NCBI GenBank assembly: GCA_944363785.1
Contig: CALVVF010000006.1
Coordinates: 1 to 64,000, forward strand
Length of the DNA stretch: 64,000 bases
Source of the DNA: an uncultured Bacilli bacterium
GTDB taxonomy: Bacteria > Bacillota_I > Bacilli_A > RF39 > UBA660
Direction of reading: 5' to 3'
Shown: positions 1 to 14,133 of the stretch, piece by piece
Layout: each line of letters opens with the position of its first letter
Numbering within the stretch: position 1 is the first letter of the stretch
Position numbers and translations under genes: made by a program
Notes under the pieces: model-generated
What the model was told of the DNA's origin: nothing
Database searches by the model: none
What the model saw: only the letters and a program-made list of their open reading frames with translations

Positions 1-138
1 AAATTAACATTTTAACTATATCATATCGATTTTTTATTTTTACTTTTTTAGTCTCACATCATTGACAACTACACATTATCCTTAGTTAGTATTTCCATTA
101 TGATTTTTTTTATCCATATTTTTTTCTAATTTAATCAA

Positions 139-2010
139 TTATCTTACTTTTACTTTTTTTAAAATAAGACTATCTTCATTTTGATATAAAGTTTCTTCAA
201 TCTTACTTAAAATAGACATCTCTTTTTCTTGAATATCTTCAATTAACACACCAAATCTTTTCGCAAGTTCATCATAAGATAAATTTTCTTGAAAGCGAAG
301 AAGGAGAAATTGAATTTCCTCTTTAGGTAAAGTGCCGATAACATTTATCATTTCTTCACTAAATGGTTCATCAGTAGCTACCGGTTTACTCACTACAAAA
401 TCTATTGTTTTTTTATTCTCATAGACATCTTCATCTAAAGATTTTGTATAAGAAATATTCTTTCTTACATAGTTTAATAGAGTTCCTTCAATAGTCTTTT
501 TTAAATAATTAATGACTTCTCCACCAATATTAGAATATGTTTTATCTATAACTTCTAAAGTACATACTTGTAGTTCATTTAAAAGATCATGATATTGTTC
601 TAGAGAAAGTTTTCTTCCTAAAATTTCAGCAATCATTTTCCTATTTATTTTCAAATATCTATTCCAAAGTATTTCTCTAGTATCAACAATATGACATTTA
701 TATAAACAAATTAACGAATAAGTATCTGGGGTAGATAAATCACTATTTGCTAAGATTTCAATTTCTGTTAAACGGTTTTTGGATAACATCTTCCTATTCT
801 TTTCATCTTGTTGATCAGAAAAATACCAAATCATACTAACCGCTTGATAAGTCGTATACCCCGCATTTTTTAATTCTTGTACTCTTTCAAAATCAATTCC
901 TAAAAACGAACAATAGGCTCCTACTGTTTCTCTATCTTGATTTACTTCTAAATCATGGAAAATATCTCTTATTTTATTCAGTTTATCTCTTCTTTCTTTT
1001 TCTAATCGATATTCTTCCACCACTAAACGCATAATTTCTTCATCATTTATTTCTGGTAACTCTTGTTTCTTCTTCATATATTTTCTAACTATTGTCGTAT
1101 AAGCATAGCCATATTTAGCACAATAAGCAGATAAAGTAGTATCTTCATAATAATATTTATAGTCATGGTAATTATCTGGATTTAATGCATAAGAAACTAA
1201 TTCTTCATCAGATAAATCAGGATTTCTTTCTTTTAAATTCCTAATGCGTTTCGTAATCGTACCATAATTTATAGAATTCGCTTCACAATATTGCTTTAAA
1301 GGTATACCTTGATGATAATATTTATAGTCACGGTAATTATAGTCACGGTAATCATCTGGATTTAGTGCATAAAAAACTAACTCTTCATCAGATAAATCAG
1401 GATTTTCTATTCTTAAGGCTGAGATACGTGCAATAATTGTACTATAATTTATAGAATTCGCTTTACAATATTGCTTTAAAGGTATACCTTGATGGTAATA
1501 TTTATTATAGTCATAGTAATTATCTGGATTTAATGCATAAGAAACTAACTCTTCATCAGATAAATCAGGATTTCTTTCTTTTAAATTCCTAATGCTTTTC
1601 GTAATCGTACCATAATTTATAGAATTCGCTTCACAATATTGCTTTAAAGGTATACCTTGATGGTAATATTTATAGTCATGATAATTATTTGGATTTAATA
1701 CATAAGAAACTAATTCTTCATCAGATAAATCAGGATTTCTTTCTTTTAAATTCTTAATACGCCACTTAATCATACCATAATTTATAGAATTCGCTTCACA
1801 ATATTGCTTTAAAGATATCCCTTGGTGGTAATATTTATAGTCATGGTAATTATCTGGATTTAATACATAAGAAACTAATTCTTCATCAGACAAATTAGGA
1901 TTTTTTTCTTTTAAATTCTTAATACGCCGCTTAATCGTATCATAATTTATAGAATTCGCTTCACAATATTGCCTTAAGGATATACCTTGATGATAATATT
2001 TTGTGTTCAA
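139..2010 (-). CDS. Sigma-70-like protein with tandem N-terminal HTH repeats
   Basis: The 623-residue protein starts with five near-identical repeats of 55-60 residues (about residues 4-58, 59-113, 114-169, 170-229, 230-284) and a diverged sixth (285-335). Each repeat has the pattern KYYHQGxxLKQYCEANSINY followed by a variable helix, then NPDLSDEELVSY; this reads as a helix-turn-helix. The C-terminal half resembles sigma-70: residues about 415-515 match region 2 (VIDKTY...YLKKTIEGTLLNYVRK), and about 555-612 match region 4 (LPKEEIQFLLLRFQENLSYDELAKRFG is the region-4 HTH, quoted across two segments). The start is TTG, with TTAGGA about 9 nt upstream; an in-frame stop lies just before it. The likely role is transcription initiation or regulation with a modular DNA-binding array. 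The sigma assignment is from visible similarity; the repeat function is inference. Confidence 0.75.
   Translation of the reverse strand: MNTKYYHQGISLRQYCEANSINYDTIKRRIKNLKEKNPNLSDEELVSYVLNPDNYHDYKYYHQGISLKQYCEANSINYGMIKWRIKNLKERNPDLSDEELVSYVLNPNNYHDYKYYHQGIPLKQYCEANSINYGTITKSIRNLKERNPDLSDEELVSYALNPDNYYDYNKYYHQGIPLKQYCKANSINYSTIIARISALRIENPDLSDEELVFYALNPDDYRDYNYRDYKYYHQGIPLKQYCEANSINYGTITKRIRNLKERNPDLSDEELVSYALNPDNYHDYKYYYEDTTLSAYCAKYGYAYTTIVRKYMKKKQELPEINDEEIMRLVVEEYRLEKERRDKLNKIRDIFHDLEVNQDRETVGAYCSFLGIDFERVQELKNAGYTTYQAVSMIWYFSDQQDEKNRKMLSKNRLTEIEILANSDLSTPDTYSLICLYKCHIVDTREILWNRYLKINRKMIAEILGRKLSLEQYHDLLNELQVCTLEVIDKTYSNIGGEVINYLKKTIEGTLLNYVRKNISYTKSLDEDVYENKKTIDFVVSKPVATDEPFSEEMINVIGTLPKEEIQFLLLRFQENLSYDELAKRFGVLIEDIQEKEMSILSKIEETLYQNEDSLILKKVKVR
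1159..2001 (-). repeat. Five tandem ~165-bp coding repeats
   Basis: Five almost identical DNA units lie in tandem inside the sigma-like gene (about 1837-2001, 1672-1836, 1504-1671, 1324-1503, 1159-1323). A sixth, diverged unit follows downstream in the gene. Nucleotide identity is high between units, indicating recent duplication or gene conversion. Differences cluster in the codons of repeat positions 21-26, the presumed recognition helix. Unit three carries one extra codon and unit four a short duplicated NYRDY-type linker. Such an array could change copy number by recombination. Confidence 0.9.
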
Positions 2011-2040
2011 CTTCCATCATCCTAACTACATAATTTTTAT

Positions 2041-2793
2041 TTAATCATGAAATTCTGGTTCAATACTTTTATTTTGAATATACTTTTCTACTTCTTGAAA
2101 ATATTCTTTTAAGTGATAGGGATAATTTAATTTCTGAGCCATTTTTTCATATAGCTTTGTTTTTTCTAGATAATGGAAACTATTAAAAAAATATAATTCG
2201 TAGACATACCCTAAATAAATTAGTAAGTGATCACTATCTGTTTTTAATTCTCTATAGGGAATCATCTGGTGTTGAAAAAATAGTTCTCGGCAAGTAGGTG
2301 TTACTTCTTCATTAGTTGTTGGTAACTCATTGTTTTCAATCAATAAATAGAGAATATCTAATTTATCGGCATCTTTAATCATCTTCGCAAATAATTCTTC
2401 TTTTTTATTTTTTATTCCTGTTAATTCCATTTTATTATGATTAAAAATACTTGTTTTGATGATGGGATAATATTCTTCTGGTATTCCAAACTTTTCGATT
2501 AACCCCTCTTCAAATAATATTTTTACTCCGTATTCTCCATGATCTAAACTCTTTCTATCATTGATGGTATGATAAGTAGATAACTGTTCAAAGCGACCAA
2601 TATCGTGTAATAAGGCAATTAATTCCGCAAGCTCAATCTCTTCTTCTGTTAAGTGAAGACTTATTGCTAATTCTTCTATTCTATCTACGACTCGATAAGT
2701 ATGATTATAACGTTCCTTTATTTTAGGGTTACTACTATCGTATTGTTGATAAAACTCTTCAAATAAAGAAATCCATCCCTTTTTTATTCTCAT
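2041..2793 (-). CDS. HD-domain phosphohydrolase
   Basis: This 250-residue protein has the metal-binding signature of the HD superfamily: an early His in HTYRVVDRI (about residue 31), LLHDIGR (about 62-68), and a later Asp in KDADKLDIL. It also carries a DHGEYGVKIL segment and FNHNK, typical of HD domains that hydrolyse phosphoesters of nucleotides. The substrate cannot be told from sequence. It starts at an ATG preceded by GAGGGATGAGAG. It lies 30 nt upstream of the repeat-containing sigma-like gene on the same strand, so the two may be co-transcribed. Family assignment is confident; function within the family is open. Confidence 0.8.
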   Translation of the reverse strand: MRIKKGWISLFEEFYQQYDSSNPKIKERYNHTYRVVDRIEELAISLHLTEEEIELAELIALLHDIGRFEQLSTYHTINDRKSLDHGEYGVKILFEEGLIEKFGIPEEYYPIIKTSIFNHNKMELTGIKNKKEELFAKMIKDADKLDILYLLIENNELPTTNEEVTPTCRELFFQHQMIPYRELKTDSDHLLIYLGYVYELYFFNSFHYLEKTKLYEKMAQKLNYPYHLKEYFQEVEKYIQNKSIEPEFHD

Positions 2794-2921
2794 TCTCTCA
2801 TCCCTCTTTTTTTATAATGTTTCTATTATACGAGGGAATTTACTTATTGGCAAGTATTGATTTCTTTACAAGCCCATACGAATATATTTATCCCTCCATA
2901 TACTATAGTAGGGTGAGAAAT

Positions 2922-3143
2922 ATGTTTAGGAAAGGACAAGGCCATGGTTTTTTCTGTCGTTGTGAAGCATGTAAGTGTAGAAGAAGATCTAGTATTTTCT
3001 ATATGGGTTTTCTCTTAGCCTTATTAATTATTCTCTTTTATCAATGTCTTTTTGCGATTTTCTTTGTTTCCCGGTTTAATTCTTTTTTATGTTTTCTCTT
3101 TTTAATTTTAGTCATGATAGGTTTTATCCGTATTATCTTTTAA
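2922..3143 (+). CDS. Small membrane protein with CxCxxCxC cluster
   Basis: This is a 73-residue protein. The ATG at 2922 is chosen because GGGTGAG sits 5 nt upstream; a longer reading frame from 2817 has no ribosome site. The N-terminal 25 residues are basic and contain CRCEACKC, a tight cysteine cluster that could bind zinc or an iron-sulfur cluster. Two hydrophobic helices follow (about 28-48 and 54-73). The cysteine cluster directly before the membrane segments is unusual. I do not recognise a family. It is convergent with the ysxE-like gene, with a shared hairpin between them. Confidence 0.55.
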   Translation: MFRKGQGHGFFCRCEACKCRRRSSIFYMGFLLALLIILFYQCLFAIFFVSRFNSFLCFLFLILVMIGFIRIIF

Positions 3144-3195
3144 AAAACTAAATAGAATGTTGACTTTTTAGTCGATTCATTCTATTTAGTTTTTC
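3142..3195. terminator. Bidirectional terminator hairpin
   Basis: A perfect inverted repeat with arms 3142-3159 and 3178-3195 (AAAACTAAATAGAATG against CATTCTATTTAGTTTT) ends in A- and T-runs on both sides. It sits between convergent genes and overlaps the last codons of the minus-strand gene. An inner GACT/AGTC pairing can form in the loop. Confidence 0.8.
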
Positions 3196-4041
3196 TCTTA
3201 ATTGATAAGCTGTTTCGGTAATAGTAAATACCTGTTTTATCTTTTGATACTCTGTTTTTTTCATTTCTAATTTTTCAGGAAGTAAGATCATTGCCAAAAA
3301 TAAATCAATTTCTTCTTCTTTTAATACATATTTACTTTGATAGATTTCTAATAGATCAAAGATATCAATTTTTTCTTTATTGTTTTGATAGATACTAAGT
3401 AGATCATAGATAGGAAGATTAATTTTCGCTTTTGACCAACTAATTAAATATAGATCGTTATTTTCAATTAAATGTTCTTTTTCTAAAGCTCCATGTGTCA
3501 TCACATAACGAAGTTTTTTACTATCTTTTACTTTCTGATACCAATTTTGAATTCTTCTTTTACTTTCACTGATATTTTGATAAAGTAAAGAGATATTTCT
3601 GATTAATAGATAATGACTAGGTGACATGTATACTTCGTTTTCAATCATATTTTGTAAGCCTGAATAATAGCTATATAAATAGTCTTGTTGATCAATTAAA
3701 TCTTCATAGATTTTTTTTATTTGATCAATATCTACATTTTTATAGAATGTTGTTTTGGTGTGTAATAAACTAGTTAAATATATTAAGTCTTCTATTCGCT
3801 GTTCTTCAGGTACATCAAAGTCATCGATATATTCCGTTATTTCGTATGGATCATCATTACTGGTTAAATTCATAGGAAAATTATCGAAATTACGTGTTCT
3901 TAAATATTCATAGATATTTGTGTTATTTTCTTCTTTTAAACAATAACGATTATTTTCTACAGAGATAATATCTACTTTTTTTCTTTTTTGATAACGGGTA
4001 GCTTTTAGATTGTATTTCTCTAGCTCTTCTTTTTTATTCAT
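3148..4041 (-). CDS. CotS/YsxE-like spore-coat kinase-fold protein
   Basis: This 297-residue protein shows a degenerate aminoglycoside-phosphotransferase/CotS fold. An N-terminal lobe holds RYCLKEEN, in the position of the lysine strand. A loop THGALEKEHLIEN resembles the HGDLSxxNIL catalytic loop of CotS-type proteins but lacks the catalytic Asp. Then comes WSKAKINLPIYDLLSIY, like the WDxAxxGxPxxDLA segment. It overlaps the 3' end of spoVID by 8 nt, and in Bacillus ysxE follows spoVID. I infer a YsxE-like spore-coat assembly protein that may be catalytically inactive. The weak sequence match makes the fold call moderate; the context strengthens it. Confidence 0.6.
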   Translation of the reverse strand: MNKKEELEKYNLKATRYQKRKKVDIISVENNRYCLKEENNTNIYEYLRTRNFDNFPMNLTSNDDPYEITEYIDDFDVPEEQRIEDLIYLTSLLHTKTTFYKNVDIDQIKKIYEDLIDQQDYLYSYYSGLQNMIENEVYMSPSHYLLIRNISLLYQNISESKRRIQNWYQKVKDSKKLRYVMTHGALEKEHLIENNDLYLISWSKAKINLPIYDLLSIYQNNKEKIDIFDLLEIYQSKYVLKEEEIDLFLAMILLPEKLEMKKTEYQKIKQVFTITETAYQLREKLNRMNRLKSQHSI

Positions 4042-4906
4042 GATGGCATGGGATGATCACTTTACTACCGATTTTTATATTTTCTAAATCATTATAGGCC
4101 GCTAAATCATCTCTTGTTGTCTTATATTTTTCGATGATAGAATCTACGGTATCACTTTCTCTTACAATATAAACGTGATAAGTTACGAATGTTTCGTTTG
4201 TCTCTTGGGCTATCATATTAAAAATGGAACTCATCTTTGTTATTTCTTGTGGGTTTTCTTCTCTTTTTATCGGATTAGTAGGCTCTGATGGTACTGATTT
4301 AGGTACTAGTTCTATTTCTTCCTGATCATCGTACAGTTGTTTATTTTTATTGATTTCTTGGCTTAGTTTCTTTTCTAGTTCTTGTTCTAAATCATTTTTC
4401 TCAGGTATAGTAGGCATTGAACAATCACTCATCTCTAATAAATCTGTCATAGTATCTGTTTCTAGAGTTTCAACTTCTAATTTTTCTTTTTTCTCTTCTA
4501 TTTCAACTGGAATTTTTTCAATTGTCTTACGAATACTTTCTTCATCTAATGATATTTCTTCATTATCTAAAGCTACTTGTTTTTCTTCTACATTACCTAT
4601 TTCTAATTCAATATTAATTTTCAAATCTTCTTCGTTAATAATTTCGAAATAGAAATCATTGATCGTAATCGTACATGCTGAAATATCATATTTACTATCT
4701 ACTTCTATAGTATAAGGTAAATTATAATGGAATTCTTCTTCAATTTGACTTGCTTCATGCATTTTATATTTACCATCAACAATGATATCTCCTTCGATAG
4801 TATTTCCTTCTTTTACTTCGAGATTATGTTTTGTTTCGATATCGGTGATTTCGGCAATCATCGTTTTAAACTTAATCGTCTTTGTAAAAGGTATTATTTT
4901 TTTCAT
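4034..4906 (-). CDS. spoVID: Stage VI sporulation protein D (SpoVID-like), LysM
   Basis: The protein is about 290 residues from the ATG at 4906, chosen because GAGGG precedes it by 5 nt; a frame from 4954 lacks a ribosome site. The N-terminal 100 residues form a beta-rich SPOCS-type domain (IIPFTKTIKFKTM start, later EEEFHYNLPYTIEVDS). The middle is acidic, low-complexity and Lys/Glu-rich. The C-terminal 45 residues are a LysM domain (YHVYIVRESDTVDSIIEKYK ending in KIGSKVIIP). This architecture is that of SpoVID, which tethers spore-coat layers to the forespore surface during encasement. The downstream ysxE-like gene matches the Bacillus order. It implies this organism makes spores or descends from spore formers. 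Confidence 0.75.
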   Translation of the reverse strand: MKKIIPFTKTIKFKTMIAEITDIETKHNLEVKEGNTIEGDIIVDGKYKMHEASQIEEEFHYNLPYTIEVDSKYDISACTITINDFYFEIINEEDLKINIELEIGNVEEKQVALDNEEISLDEESIRKTIEKIPVEIEEKKEKLEVETLETDTMTDLLEMSDCSMPTIPEKNDLEQELEKKLSQEINKNKQLYDDQEEIELVPKSVPSEPTNPIKREENPQEITKMSSIFNMIAQETNETFVTYHVYIVRESDTVDSIIEKYKTTRDDLAAYNDLENIKIGSKVIIPCHHE

Positions 4907-9672: not shown

Positions 9673-10461
9673 ATGTGGCAAGAAGAATTAGAAGAATATA
9701 TTCTTTTAACAGGAAAAAAGAATTTGAAAACTTTATTAGCTGAAGAAAGTCAATTAAGAAAAATGTTTAATTTATATACGACTACTTTTGATGCTGAGAT
9801 GCTTAATAATCTTTGGGAATTAATGCTTTATGATCATATTAACCGTAGATTTTCTTTAAAGGATTTAGAAGATATATATGCCCTCTCTCCAGCAAAACGA
9901 CATGATTCTTTTATGCGCTATATTGATATTATGCACTATGGTAGTCATATTTTTCGTGGATTAAAGGCATATTCATTTGATCATCCATTATTCTACCTAG
10001 ATCAGGCAGATTTTCGTATGGCAAATTCTCTACAACGTTGTATGGATTGTATTGATGAACTTGCTGATTGTACAGAGGGAAGTCTACGTGAAGAACTAGT
10101 CGAAGTCAATGATAGTATGTTCTTTGCTTTAGAAGATATGTATGATTATTTTTATCAAGATACTTTTCTTCCACAAATGACATCAGCACTTGAACAAGGT
10201 AATCAAAAAGAGGTCTTACGATTGTTTCGTAAGTGTGCGGAAAAAAGGGATTTATATACAAGAGGAATAAGTCGTTTTGTCGATTTATTACTAGTTGCTT
10301 CCCAAGAAGTTAATGACAATTTGGATGAATTTACTTCATATACAGATATTTATCCTACTATTTCTTCTTTTCAAGACCAGGCTAATCAATATCAAGAAAA
10401 TACTAAAATTTATCGTATGCAAAGGCAATTGTTTGATCGTTATAAAAATGAAAACAAATAA
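9673..10461 (+). CDS. Hypothetical helical protein
   Basis: This 262-residue soluble protein is predicted to be almost wholly helical, with no signal, membrane segment or recognisable catalytic motif. Many aromatic and acidic residues (for example FALEDMYDYFYQDTFLP) suggest a helical-bundle or protein-binding role. It is an isolated plus-strand gene among minus-strand genes, with its own consensus promoter, a good AAGGAG site and a strong terminator, so it is clearly a real and independently expressed gene. I do not recognise the family. Confidence 0.7.
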   Translation: MWQEELEEYILLTGKKNLKTLLAEESQLRKMFNLYTTTFDAEMLNNLWELMLYDHINRRFSLKDLEDIYALSPAKRHDSFMRYIDIMHYGSHIFRGLKAYSFDHPLFYLDQADFRMANSLQRCMDCIDELADCTEGSLREELVEVNDSMFFALEDMYDYFYQDTFLPQMTSALEQGNQKEVLRLFRKCAEKRDLYTRGISRFVDLLLVASQEVNDNLDEFTSYTDIYPTISSFQDQANQYQENTKIYRMQRQLFDRYKNENK

Positions 10462-10483
10462 AAAAATTCTATAATATTTGATT

Positions 10484-10525
10484 AACTGTATACTAAGTGA
10501 TTTTTCACTTGGTATACAGTTTTAT
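10484..10525 (+). terminator. Rho-independent terminator
   Basis: AACTGTATAC plus AAGTGA pairs with TCACTT plus GTATACAGTT, closed by a short T loop and followed by TTTATTTT. It lies just after the plus-strand gene ending at 10461. Confidence 0.85.
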
Positions 10526-10542
10526 TTTAAATCGGTATCTAA

Positions 10543-10578
10543 CAAAAAAAGTGACTTAGTTTTCTCTAAATCACTTTT
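10543..10578 (-). terminator. greA terminator
   Basis: Minus-strand stem AAAGTGATTTAG / CTAAGTCACTTT with a 6-nt loop, then T7. It overlaps the start of the greA stop region. Confidence 0.8.
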
Positions 10579-11059
10579 ACTTGATTTCAGTAATTTGTAC
10601 TTGATAGCTACCATTTGGACTTTCTACTGTTACGATATCGCCTACTTTACGATTAAGTAATGCTTTGGCAATTGGACTTTCATTAGAAATCTTACTAGCA
10701 AATGGATCAGCTTCTTGACTACCAACGATTTTATACTCGTCTTCTTCCTCGTCCTCATCGTCTTCATCCATATATTTAATCACAACAGTACTACCAAGAC
10801 CCACTTTGTCTTTGGATACTTCTTCTATAATCACGTAATTTTCAAGCATTTGTTCAATCTTCTTGATTCTTCCTTCTAGTTGAGCTTGTTCATCACGAGC
10901 GGAATCATAATCAGCATTTTCCGATAAATCACCTAAAGCACGAGCTTCTTTGATTGCTTGAATATTAGCAGGTCGTTTAACATTGATTAAATCATCAAGT
11001 TCATTCTTTAACTCCTCTAATCCTTCTTTTGTTAAATAGACAACTGGTTTATCGCTCAT
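10577..11059 (-). CDS. greA: Transcription elongation factor GreA
   Basis: The 160-residue length is typical of GreA. The N-terminal coiled coil carries the conserved GDLSENADYDSARDEQAQ tip (about 44-61), whose acidic residues reach the RNA polymerase active site to stimulate cleavage of backtracked RNA. The C-terminal FKBP-like domain includes VTVESPNGSYQVQITEI at the end. An acidic insert DEDDEDEEEDEY (about 98-109) is longer than usual. It is monocistronic, with a consensus promoter upstream and a terminator downstream. Confidence 0.96.
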   Translation of the reverse strand: MSDKPVVYLTKEGLEELKNELDDLINVKRPANIQAIKEARALGDLSENADYDSARDEQAQLEGRIKKIEQMLENYVIIEEVSKDKVGLGSTVVIKYMDEDDEDEEEDEYKIVGSQEADPFASKISNESPIAKALLNRKVGDIVTVESPNGSYQVQITEIK

Positions 11060-11089
11060 ATTATCACCTCATTTAAAAATTCTTCTAAC

Positions 11090-11118
11090 ATGATACTATA
11101 AAACAATGATAATGTCAA
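11090..11118 (-). promoter_or_regulatory. greA promoter
   Basis: Minus-strand -35 TTGACA (11113-11118, perfect), 17-nt spacer, -10 TATCAT (11090-11095). Confidence 0.75.
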
Positions 11119-11145
11119 GTTATTTTTGTTGACACATTTATTTTT

Positions 11146-12309
11146 TTATTGTTCTTGTTTACTATATGAGAATTCTTTTAAATGGTGAATACTATTTATA
11201 AAATATTCATCAGTCATTCCTGCGATAAAATCAATGACTATTCTTTCTGGAGAGGTGGTTGTTTGGTAAGTTTTATCGGCATGATCAAGGTAAATAGTAA
11301 AGATATCACTCGTTTTATTTTTTGTTTTAATATCGTTTAGTAGTTTCTCATAAAGGTGATTCATTCCCTTTCGATAGAAGGCAATTTGCTCTTTAGTATT
11401 GGCTTTGTTGTAAATATTTTCATAGTTAAAACTTTTTAAGTCTTTGATCGCTTGGAAAACTTCTTCACTCATTTTAATATATGGTTGATTAAAGCTATTT
11501 TTAATAATATCGATGATGATGGTATTGACGATTTCTTTATTGGTTACCCCTAATACTTTTTGAACAGATACAGGGATTTCTTCTCTTTTTAATACCCCAA
11601 TATTAATCGCATCTTCGATATCTCTCCCAATATAGCCAATGATATCACTAATTCTTACTACGCATCCTTCTAGTGTCATTGGTTTTACTTTTCTTAAGGT
11701 TTCTTTATCGGTATAACAAGCTTCATATTCTTTTAAGAACTCTTCGGTTGTTTTTTTCTTAGGGCAATAGATATTTTCTAACATTTCGCCATTATGACAC
11801 ATGATTCCATCTAATACTTGGATAGTTAGATTGATCCCTTGTTGATTGTTTTCTAAGTTCATGTACGTTCTAACACTTTGAATATTATGGGAAAAGAAGG
11901 TATTTGTTTCTCTTAGGGAGATTTCATTTAACAAACTTTCACCAACATGCCCTATTGGAGTATGACCGATATCATGTCCTAAAGCGATAGCTTCGATTAA
12001 ATCTTCATTTAAGTTTAAAGCTCGACCAATCGTGCGGGCGATTTTACTTACTAATTGAACATGAACAATTCTCTTACTGATATGGTCATTGGGATTAAAG
12101 GAAAACACTTGGGTTTTATTTAAATATCTCGTATAAGATAAAGCATGAATAATCCGATCAATATCGTGATAAAATTCCGGTCTGATTTCGTCTTTTCTGG
12201 TTTCTTTTTTTAGACGGACTCCTTCTTTACTTTTGGTGGCATAACGACTTAGATGTTTTTCTTTTAATAGAAAATTTTCTTTTACTTGTTCTAATAACTC
12301 TTTGTCCAT
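11146..12309 (-). CDS. dGTPase-like deoxynucleotide triphosphohydrolase
   Basis: The protein is about 387 residues from the ATG at 12309, chosen because AAGGAG precedes it by 6 nt; a frame from 12330 lacks a ribosome site. HD-superfamily metal ligands are visible in RYLNKTQVF, HVQLVSKIARTI and ALGHDIGHTPIGHVGE. The family hydrolyses dNTPs to deoxynucleosides and triphosphate and so limits dNTP pools in the cytosol. ISDIIGYIGRDIEDAI is the second conserved block. The member is slightly short compared with E. coli Dgt and closer to Firmicutes dGTPase-like proteins. Confidence 0.88.
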   Translation of the reverse strand: MDKELLEQVKENFLLKEKHLSRYATKSKEGVRLKKETRKDEIRPEFYHDIDRIIHALSYTRYLNKTQVFSFNPNDHISKRIVHVQLVSKIARTIGRALNLNEDLIEAIALGHDIGHTPIGHVGESLLNEISLRETNTFFSHNIQSVRTYMNLENNQQGINLTIQVLDGIMCHNGEMLENIYCPKKKTTEEFLKEYEACYTDKETLRKVKPMTLEGCVVRISDIIGYIGRDIEDAINIGVLKREEIPVSVQKVLGVTNKEIVNTIIIDIIKNSFNQPYIKMSEEVFQAIKDLKSFNYENIYNKANTKEQIAFYRKGMNHLYEKLLNDIKTKNKTSDIFTIYLDHADKTYQTTTSPERIVIDFIAGMTDEYFINSIHHLKEFSYSKQEQ

Positions 12310-12464
12310 ATTTTCTCCTTTTATAATCATTCTTGCTCGTATTATACTATAAATTCTAGTAAATTCCTATATGTGTACTGATTTTGATTTAAAAATATTA
12401 AATTGGCTATCTATCTTTTAGGCAAGTCTTGTTTCAAGTGGTTCTAAACTTTTCTTTTAAACTT

Positions 12465-12500
12465 TAAAAAGCAATTAACGGTTAATCGCTAATTGCTTCT
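12465..12500 (-). terminator. Terminator of the ABC-F gene
   Basis: Minus-strand AAGCAATTA pairs with TTAATTGCTT around a short inner GCGATTAACCG segment, followed by TTTA. It lies just past the stop at 12511. Confidence 0.65.
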
Positions 12501-12510
12501 TTACTTACTT

Positions 12511-14133
12511 TTAGTTTTTGTTCGCATAGGCTTGTTCTCGTAATTTATTTACTTCTTTATTTTCTAGATACTCATCAAATGGTAAACGTCTATCAATAAT
12601 GCCAGTTGGTAAAATTTCGATAATACGGTTAGCGACTGTACTCGTAAATTGATGATCATGGGAAGTAAATAAAACTTCTGAATCATATTTTATCAAGCCA
12701 TTATTTAAGGCCGTAATACTTTCCAAGTCTAAGTGGTTAGTAGGTTCATCTAGGATTAAGAAATTACTTGCTTCTAACATACATTTTGACATCATACAAC
12801 GCATCTTTTCTCCACCGGATAAGACAGGAACTTTTTTAAACACATCTTCCCCAGAAAACAACATTCTACCTAAGAAACTACGTAATACTGTTTCATCATC
12901 CACATGATGGTATTTTCCCATCCATTCCATAATCGTCTCATCATCTTGGAAGTATTCAGAATTATCTTGAGGAATATAACTTTTTGTGATTGTCTTTCCC
13001 CAAATAACTTCCCCTTTGTCTGGTTTTAATTCACCCATTAAAATTTTAAATAATGTCGTTTTCGCAATGTCATCGCTACCGACAAAAGCAATCTTATCCC
13101 CTTTTAAAACTGAAAAAGAAACTTTATCTAATACTTTTCTTCCTTCGACCGTTTTCGTTAAGTTCTTTACCGTTAAGATTTCTTTACCAGATGGTTTTTC
13201 TGGCTTAAAGTCAATATAAGGATACTTCCTAGATGAAGGGACAATTTCTTCTAATTCGATTTTTTCTAACATTTTCTTTCTGCTTGTTGCCTGTTTACTC
13301 TTAGAAGCATTAGCAGAGAACCTCGCAATAAAATCTTGTAATTCTTTGATTTTTTCTTCTTTCTTCTTATTTTGCTCCTTCATCTGTTTTAAAGCTAATT
13401 GACTAGATTCGTACCAGAAATCATAGTTACCGATATATAATTTCATCTTATTATAGTCAATATCGACAATGTGCGTACAAACTTTATTTAAGAAATGACG
13501 ATCGTGAGAAACGACGATTACTGTATTGGGATAATTGATTAAAAATTCTTCTAACCAATTGATTGCTTCCATATCTAAGTTGTTGGTTGGTTCATCTAAA
13601 AGTAAGATATCTGGATTACCAAATAAAGCTTGAGCAAGTAATACTTTTACTTTTTGTTTAGCTGGTATTTCTTTCATTAAACTATAGTGGACATCAGTAG
13701 GAATACCAAGGGCAGATAGTAATTCCCCTGCTTCACTTTCTGCTTCCCAACCGTTCATCTCAGCAAATTCAGCTTCAAGTTCAGCAAGACGCATTCCGTC
13801 TTCATCACTAAACTCAGTTTGGGCATACATTTTTTCTTTTTCTTGCATGATCGAATAGAGTTTAGTATTTCCCATGATGACCGTATTAATTACAGATAGA
13901 TCTTCATAGGCAAAGTGATCTTGTTTTAAAACCGAAATTCTCTCACCCTTAGTCACGATAATTTCGCCACTTGTCGTATCGATTTCACCACTTAATAATT
14001 TTAAAAAAGTAGATTTTCCGGCACCATTAGCACCAATAATCCCATAACAATTTCCTGCTGTAAATTTGATATTCACTTCTTCAAATAAAGTTCGTTTACC
14101 AAAACGAAGTGTTACATTTTTAGCCGTTATCAT
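12511..14133 (-). CDS. ybiT: ABC-F ribosome-associated ATPase, YbiT/YkpA type
   Basis: This 540-residue protein has two ABC domains joined by a linker and no membrane segments. Domain 1 has GANGAGKST (Walker A) and LLLDEPTNNLD. The linker contains ARFSANASKSKQATSR, a segment typical of YbiT. Domain 2 has LSGGEKMRCMMSKCM and LILDEPTNHLD. ABC-F proteins act on the ribosomal E site in translation regulation or antibiotic protection. The second Walker A reads VGSDDIAKTTLFK, with Ala in place of the last Gly and no second Gly, so site 2 may bind or hydrolyse ATP differently. The length and start match the family. Confidence 0.9.
   Translation of the reverse strand: MITAKNVTLRFGKRTLFEEVNIKFTAGNCYGIIGANGAGKSTFLKLLSGEIDTTSGEIIVTKGERISVLKQDHFAYEDLSVINTVIMGNTKLYSIMQEKEKMYAQTEFSDEDGMRLAELEAEFAEMNGWEAESEAGELLSALGIPTDVHYSLMKEIPAKQKVKVLLAQALFGNPDILLLDEPTNNLDMEAINWLEEFLINYPNTVIVVSHDRHFLNKVCTHIVDIDYNKMKLYIGNYDFWYESSQLALKQMKEQNKKKEEKIKELQDFIARFSANASKSKQATSRKKMLEKIELEEIVPSSRKYPYIDFKPEKPSGKEILTVKNLTKTVEGRKVLDKVSFSVLKGDKIAFVGSDDIAKTTLFKILMGELKPDKGEVIWGKTITKSYIPQDNSEYFQDDETIMEWMGKYHHVDDETVLRSFLGRMLFSGEDVFKKVPVLSGGEKMRCMMSKCMLEASNFLILDEPTNHLDLESITALNNGLIKYDSEVLFTSHDHQFTSTVANRIIEILPTGIIDRRLPFDEYLENKEVNKLREQAYANKN

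Follow-up and report, generated by a model that had tools for sequence, protein, structure and literature searches.

The gene at the start of the window (the whole 64,000-nucleotide stretch of DNA analysed here) raises the question of what a sigma-like protein would do with a row of helix-turn-helix (HTH)-like repeats at its N-terminus, and whether that row reads DNA. The gene is a single open frame on the minus strand, from a TTG start at 2010 to a stop codon at 139-141, and the TTG occupies the position of the ATG in orthologues. Its product has, in order from the N-terminus, six repeats of about 55 aa, a conserved WYFSD domain, a sigma region 2-like domain and a sigma region 4-like domain. 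The source genome is a draft in 36 contigs, and the gene sits at the end of one of them; short reads might have miscounted the 165-bp repeats. The features of the gene are as follows.

142..2010, minus strand: focal coding sequence (623 aa), which starts with TTG; stop codon at 139-141
1837..2001, minus strand: repeat 1; positions 21-26 read DTIKRR (1924-1941)
1672..1836, minus strand: repeat 2; GMIKWR (1759-1776)
1504..1671, minus strand: repeat 3; GTITKS (1594-1611)
1324..1503, minus strand: repeat 4; STIIAR (1426-1443); the most diverged of repeats 1-5, with a longer linker
1159..1323, minus strand: repeat 5; GTITKR (1246-1263)
1000..1158, minus strand: repeat 6, diverged; TTIVRK (1081-1098); positional counterpart of the last repeat in eight-repeat relatives
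781..978, minus strand: conserved helical domain in the centre, with MIWYFSD at its end; resembles a shortened repeat (profile comparison probability 1%)
457..738, minus strand: sigma region 2-like domain, residues ~425-518
175..363, minus strand: sigma region 4-like domain, residues ~550-612; in nearly all members the counterpart of the recognition helix is acidic

The sigma-like identity of the C-terminal part, claimed in the preliminary description, was backed by profile and fold matches. Residues 425-621 matched the folds of sigma B, WhiG, SigW and others at Z 9-11, and the sigma factor family TIGR02937 matched residues 445-607 with an E-value of 4.6e-9, at a score (36.1) below the NCBI cut-off of 42.9. 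PHROG 1740, a phage RNA polymerase sigma factor family, matched this part of the protein (phrog_1740, E 1.8e-11). The region 4-like domain matched sigma A region 4 by profile at E 4.7e-5 and sigma folds at a Z of about 9 (rmsd 1.7-2.7 Å over 61-69 residues), with Pfam region-4 scores under the gathering threshold. A D-x3-E pair of the region 2.2 type (D475, E479) and a Y...I-[KR]-G stretch show almost no variation. By profile and predicted fold, then, the protein has both the region 2 and the region 4 domain of the sigma70 family, from which we infer sigma activity. The full-length model, with a pTM of 0.40, does not give the mutual arrangement of the domains.

Like known sigma70-family factors (ECF, SigB and WhiG/FliA types), the protein carries a region 2-like domain followed by a region 4-like one, but it differs by its N-terminal six to eight HTH-like repeats and WYFSD domain; no matching N-terminal extension on sigma factors was present in the libraries or papers searched. 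It also differs in the recognition helix of region 4. The region 4.2 helix of sigma factors is normally basic and reads the -35 element. Across 20 members of the present family, the equivalent helix has a net charge of -4 to +1, with a mean of about -1.6, and a basic helix of this kind is absent. Because of this acidity, normal reading of a -35 box is unlikely, and the array perhaps takes over that recognition.

The same acidic helix would suit a different role, in which the protein is a regulator belonging to mobile DNA (a repressor, an activator or an anti-sigma-like decoy) and its sigma-like part only docks on polymerase. Sigma scores under the curated cut-offs point the same way, as do the horizontal spread of the gene and the position of certain copies beside serine recombinase/Mob units or a serine recombinase (see below). 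Against this, both sigma domains are under purifying selection, with a dN/dS of 0.26 over the C-terminal part, and the acidic residues of the region 2.2 type hardly vary. We regard such a role as possible but give it clearly less credence than that of a sigma factor.

We then turn to the array itself. The motif KYYHQGI opens five repeats, at residues 4, 59, 114, 170 and 230, with a diverged sixth beginning at residue 285, and the array is detected by TRF with a score of 1144. In the predicted structure (pLDDT 88) a repeat unit consists of a short beta hairpin followed by three helices at positions 9-15, 20-33 and about 39-47, with an HTH-like turn at 16-19 between the first helix and the long second one. 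We examined residue composition in 150 repeats from 19 proteins. Over positions 21-29, aspartate and glutamate account for only 0-3% per position, the residues at 23 and 27 are hydrophobic in every repeat, and the mean charge is +3.0 for helix 20-33 and -2.9 for helix 39-48; an exception is repeat 7 of the main lineage, whose helix is neutral with a mean charge of -0.2. A helix that is basic and nearly devoid of acidic residues supports DNA contact, and these features are what would be expected of a DNA-facing helix with one side in the core. The preliminary description had taken positions 21-26 as base contacts, which the charge pattern favours, except that position 23 is an invariant isoleucine in the window repeats and belongs to the core.

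Profile and fold searches give this picture less definition. Pfam matches of the repeats to HTH_28 and HTH_23 are weak and below cut-off, and weak matches were also obtained to HTH-bearing phage proteins, namely an HNH endonuclease (phrog_3377), a terminase small subunit and an excisionase. Structure prediction of the repeats, proposed in the preliminary description as a check, does yield the turn at 16-19 and the helix at 20-33, but a fold search of a two-repeat model against solved structures in the PDB matched no HTH structure, which leaves DNA contact as something inferred from the helix. Searches of the PDB and BFVD with two repeats returned nothing at an E-value of 0.001 or better; a Synechococcus phage HNH endonuclease ranked second in BFVD at E 0.05, which we treat as a lead only. 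The single PDB sequence match of the repeat profile, Cin1 of Venturia (2LHT, E 0.012), is regarded as chance. The WYFSD domain was considered as an additional repeat, which the profile comparison (probability 1%) did not support. The best fold matches of the two-repeat model were the three-helix domains RPA AROD and RuvA domain III (Z 3.4-5.0, a range also given by unrelated small helical domains). If these are taken at face value, and given that no HTH structure was matched, the repeats could be protein-interaction modules that make no DNA contact. Z values of that size are, however, typical of unrelated small helical domains, and the HTH sequence pattern, the basic, acid-poor helix and the matches to DNA-binding families argue in the other direction, so that we consider this improbable.

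The preliminary description held that five repeats were near identical except at positions 21-26, and that recent duplication followed by selected change at contact residues could have produced a changeable, TAL-like code. The six hexapeptides it quoted are exactly those of the translated repeats. Near identity outside them is an overstatement, since repeats 1-5 differ at 18 of 52 positions and repeat 4 shares only 80-85% DNA identity with the other near-identical repeats, but the variation is enriched in the predicted helix 20-33, the second of the unit, with 10 of its 14 positions variable compared with 8 of 38 elsewhere. This clustering is beyond chance, yet modest (P = 0.04 for any six-residue window; P = 0.002 for helix 20-33 versus the rest). 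Among the window repeats, pN is 0.32 at positions 21-26 and 0.039 outside 20-33, an eightfold difference, and pS is raised as well, at 0.40 versus 0.17 (2.4-fold). Part of the signal may thus reflect older segments that were spared while their flanks were homogenised. In the youngest repeat pairs (1-2 and 3-5), four of eight amino-acid changes (positions 10, 21, 22, 25, 33, 36, 50 and 26) fall at 21-26, compared with none of eight silent changes (positions 3, 4, 6, 8, 37, 52 and 3, 41). With a one-sided Fisher test of 0.04, a two-sided value of 0.08 and 16 changes in all, the pattern hints at selection on the helix, and selection for altered contacts in the window copy is at most suggested.

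As to the origin of these repeats, window repeats 1-5 are each closest to repeat 2 or 3 of relatives, and in the two nearest relatives repeat 2 is always their best counterpart, which suggests repeated duplication of one unit. The sixth repeat has its best mean scores against repeats 7 and 8 of relatives. Among the copies compared, recent rebuilding from a single unit is suggested for the window copy only.

To place the window copy among its relatives, we scanned genome contigs; a single-sequence scan found nothing and a scan based on an alignment detected 24 loci in assemblies of Bacilli, whose titles mostly indicate gut samples; Candidatus Onthousia and Candidatus Scybalousia are among the carriers. 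Within the family, 31 of 291 genomes and 25 of the 150 genera have matches to the repeats, and the class and phylum samples outside the family contained no repeat match at E 1e-5. Eighteen unique copies have exactly eight repeats each. The helix peculiar to each repeat is retained from genus to genus (YYSVVSFVK in repeat 5, for example), and shorter members retain the identity of the repeats that remain to them, with L093 and L098 corresponding to repeats 3-8. The main lineages therefore have old, fixed and individually distinct repeats. Between the repeats of 16 orthologues nearly all positions differ, with the third helix and the linker, instead of 21-26, showing the greatest contrast.

Between species, the candidate contact positions vary no more than the remainder of each repeat. 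Identity among orthologous repeats is 0.69 at these positions and 0.75 at the others, and dN/dS is 0.21 and 0.16, respectively, which together with the value for the C-terminal part indicates purifying selection on the protein in both its repeats and its sigma-like part. In this species-level comparison, then, the expectations that repeat number and helix residues would vary among relatives and that dN/dS would be elevated at the contacts were not borne out, and the changeable code does not hold between species. A narrower version would have the window array alone diversifying by selection at its contacts, as a modular, evolvable DNA-reading code that tracks changing targets. The excess of amino-acid over silent changes in the youngest pairs, the clustering of variation in helix 20-33 and the apparent descent of five units from one ancestor speak for it. 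Set against these are the contact positions that evolve no faster between species, the eight repeats fixed in 18 copies, and the silent divergence that is raised in the very same segment of what is one array only. We think this version unlikely.

Would-be contact residues that are fixed between species point to a reader of one long site, not to a quickly changing code. The explanation we prefer, in which we place about even confidence, is that the gene encodes a sigma70-like factor, travelling as a lone mobile gene, whose HTH-like array reads one long DNA site. The N-terminal row of six to eight modules would run along DNA, and, through recognition-helix residues specific to each module, the modules would jointly read a single long site that is fixed within a lineage. 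Binding of core RNA polymerase and of the -10 region would fall to the region 2-like domain; the region 4-like domain would retain its polymerase contact without reading a -35 box, and the array would substitute for that recognition. In the window lineage the array may have been rebuilt by repeated duplication of one unit, closest to repeat 2 of relatives, and would then have diverged mainly in the recognition helix.

Two known groups of proteins invite comparison with this sigma70-like array reader. TAL effectors and TALE-like proteins (BurrH, MOrTL) are made of tandem repeats that differ at few positions (PMC5472282), and the idea in common is one of tandem repeats with proposed module-by-module reading of DNA. 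The units here are 55-aa hairpin-HTH modules, not TALE repeats; relatives vary at nearly all positions between repeats, and the candidate contacts are conserved between species. Variation confined to specificity residues is seen in part in the window copy only, and fails in the 16 orthologues. Phage homing endonucleases such as I-HmuI and I-TevI use small modules (NUMODs), HTHs included, to contact long sites, which can span 30 bp at most (PMC3943268). The likeness lies in DNA-binding modules strung together, and the repeats do match phrog_3377 weakly, but the present protein is without a nuclease domain, has a sigma-like C-terminus and carries a longer, regular array; no NUMOD model appeared in Pfam scans of it. 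No described family with the whole architecture, and no paper on such a protein, was found in the libraries and papers searched.

If the array does read DNA, the protein would represent a factor of the sigma type in which many small modules in a long row select the promoter. The natural six- and eight-module variants, together with a freshly rebuilt array, would form a series in which to follow the evolution of HTH specificity by duplication, and the array could be a source of modular DNA-binding units.

Another way to view the gene is through its movement between genomes. DNA identity of the focal gene across genera reaches 82-92% (74-88% at third positions), whereas lon in the same genome pairs is 60-69% identical (43-55% at third positions). 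For genomes G013 and G171, the values at all and at third positions are 92% and 88% for the focal gene, compared with 62% and 47% for lon. Conversely, the window genome and genome G012 have lon proteins that are 92% identical and focal proteins that are merely 42% identical. In most pairs of copies DNA similarity stops near the edges of the open reading frame, at varying distances, and the neighbouring genes are unrelated, many of them core genes; a recurring neighbour or operon partner that might be a regulated target was not found, save in one pair of related loci. As judged from these identities, the gene moves alone between genera of one family of gut Bacilli.

The window itself holds what may be one such event, flanked by the following features.

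2041..2793, minus strand: HD-domain gene upstream of the focal gene; differs from the copy in the relative over its last 8 codons
1..102, no strand: end of an IS-like element (1-75) and 27-bp direct repeat (76-102); not part of the gene

In G012 two HD-domain genes are adjacent and the focal gene is absent between them. The window genome has the first HD-domain gene next to the focal gene, close to where contig C6 starts, and the second at the start of contig C11. The arrangement points to a gene-sized insertion between two conserved genes, or else a deletion in G012, and the altered last eight codons of the first HD-domain gene would mark the upstream edge of the insertion. The 27-bp direct repeat, CATAATGGAAATACTAACTAAGGATAA, is present at window 76-102 and at the head of contig C11 (locus L154), and the inverted ends of the IS-like element carry TTAGTCTCACATCA at both contig ends (window 1-102 and L154); an IS-like element with this repeat explains why the contig ends where the window starts. 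At about 290-375 of L154, a T-box-like leader with GGTGGTACCGCGG lies upstream of the second HD-domain gene and is kept in G012.

Other copies occupy varied sites. At loci L085, L093 and L096 the gene directly follows a tRNA or tmRNA gene, and at L094 a 24-bp direct repeat of the 3' end of a tRNA-Leu gene flanks it on both sides. Repeats of tRNA ends were considered as general attachment sites, but besides the 24-bp repeat in L094 and copies of the motif after some genes, none was found at the other tRNA-gene loci. At L088, on a 290-kb contig, two tandem units of a serine recombinase and a Mob_Pre-like protein flank the gene at 1530-4806 and 9973-13624, and another copy is near a serine recombinase. 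No shared terminal repeats, constant target site or target duplication were found among the compared copies; at the window insertion the longest direct repeat is 9 bp. In searches of Pfam, NCBIfam, PHROGs and PADLOC the product gave HTH and sigma matches only and none to a nuclease, recombinase or transposase domain; a match to IS66 TnpA is limited to HTH residues. The whole architecture had no match in phages, plasmids or viral contigs, and an origin there was set aside, as was an anti-phage defence role, for which the only match, AbiD to the repeats, is at chance level.

These data bear on whether the gene could be a minimal selfish element in the manner of homing genes, with a product that finds long sites and brings about insertion of the gene there. 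DNA similarity that ends at the edges of the reading frame amid unrelated neighbours, a gene-sized insertion relative to an empty site, and copies after tRNA or tmRNA genes, one of them within the tRNA-Leu repeat, would all fit. The product nonetheless has no recognisable catalytic domain for the task, the copies have neither common termini nor a constant or duplicated target, and ordinary recombination or larger carrier elements explain the data equally well, making this a very unlikely account. A composite proposal, in which a self-spreading gene encodes a new class of sigma factor and interchangeable HTH modules replace -35 reading and are duplicated and altered for new specificities, as in the window copy, we likewise doubt. 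Whatever the array does, the passage between genera of a lone transcription-factor gene that encodes no mobility function prompts the questions of what carries it and how its hosts benefit.

Some further observations concern the loci and the repeat family at large. A trailer of the form CTCGRACTTTT ... GAG directly follows different tRNA genes and a tmRNA gene (L085, L088, L094, L096 and L101), and stand-alone copies of it follow focal genes in L091, L092 and L094. Frameshift-broken copies of the gene occur at L095 (3509-5806) and L104 (6977-9238), which fits gain and loss. Other proteins consist mostly of these repeats (L058 2374-4929, L061 8931-10334, and L062 1420-3994 and 15920-17881); those of L058, which is two adjacent genes, and L061 have seven repeats and no recognised sigma domain. 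Finally, large proteins at L064 (7678-10533), L076 (1-2628) and L069 (8469-10673) combine another tandem array with one HTH-like unit of the present family and share a C-terminal region, and are possibly a sister architecture.
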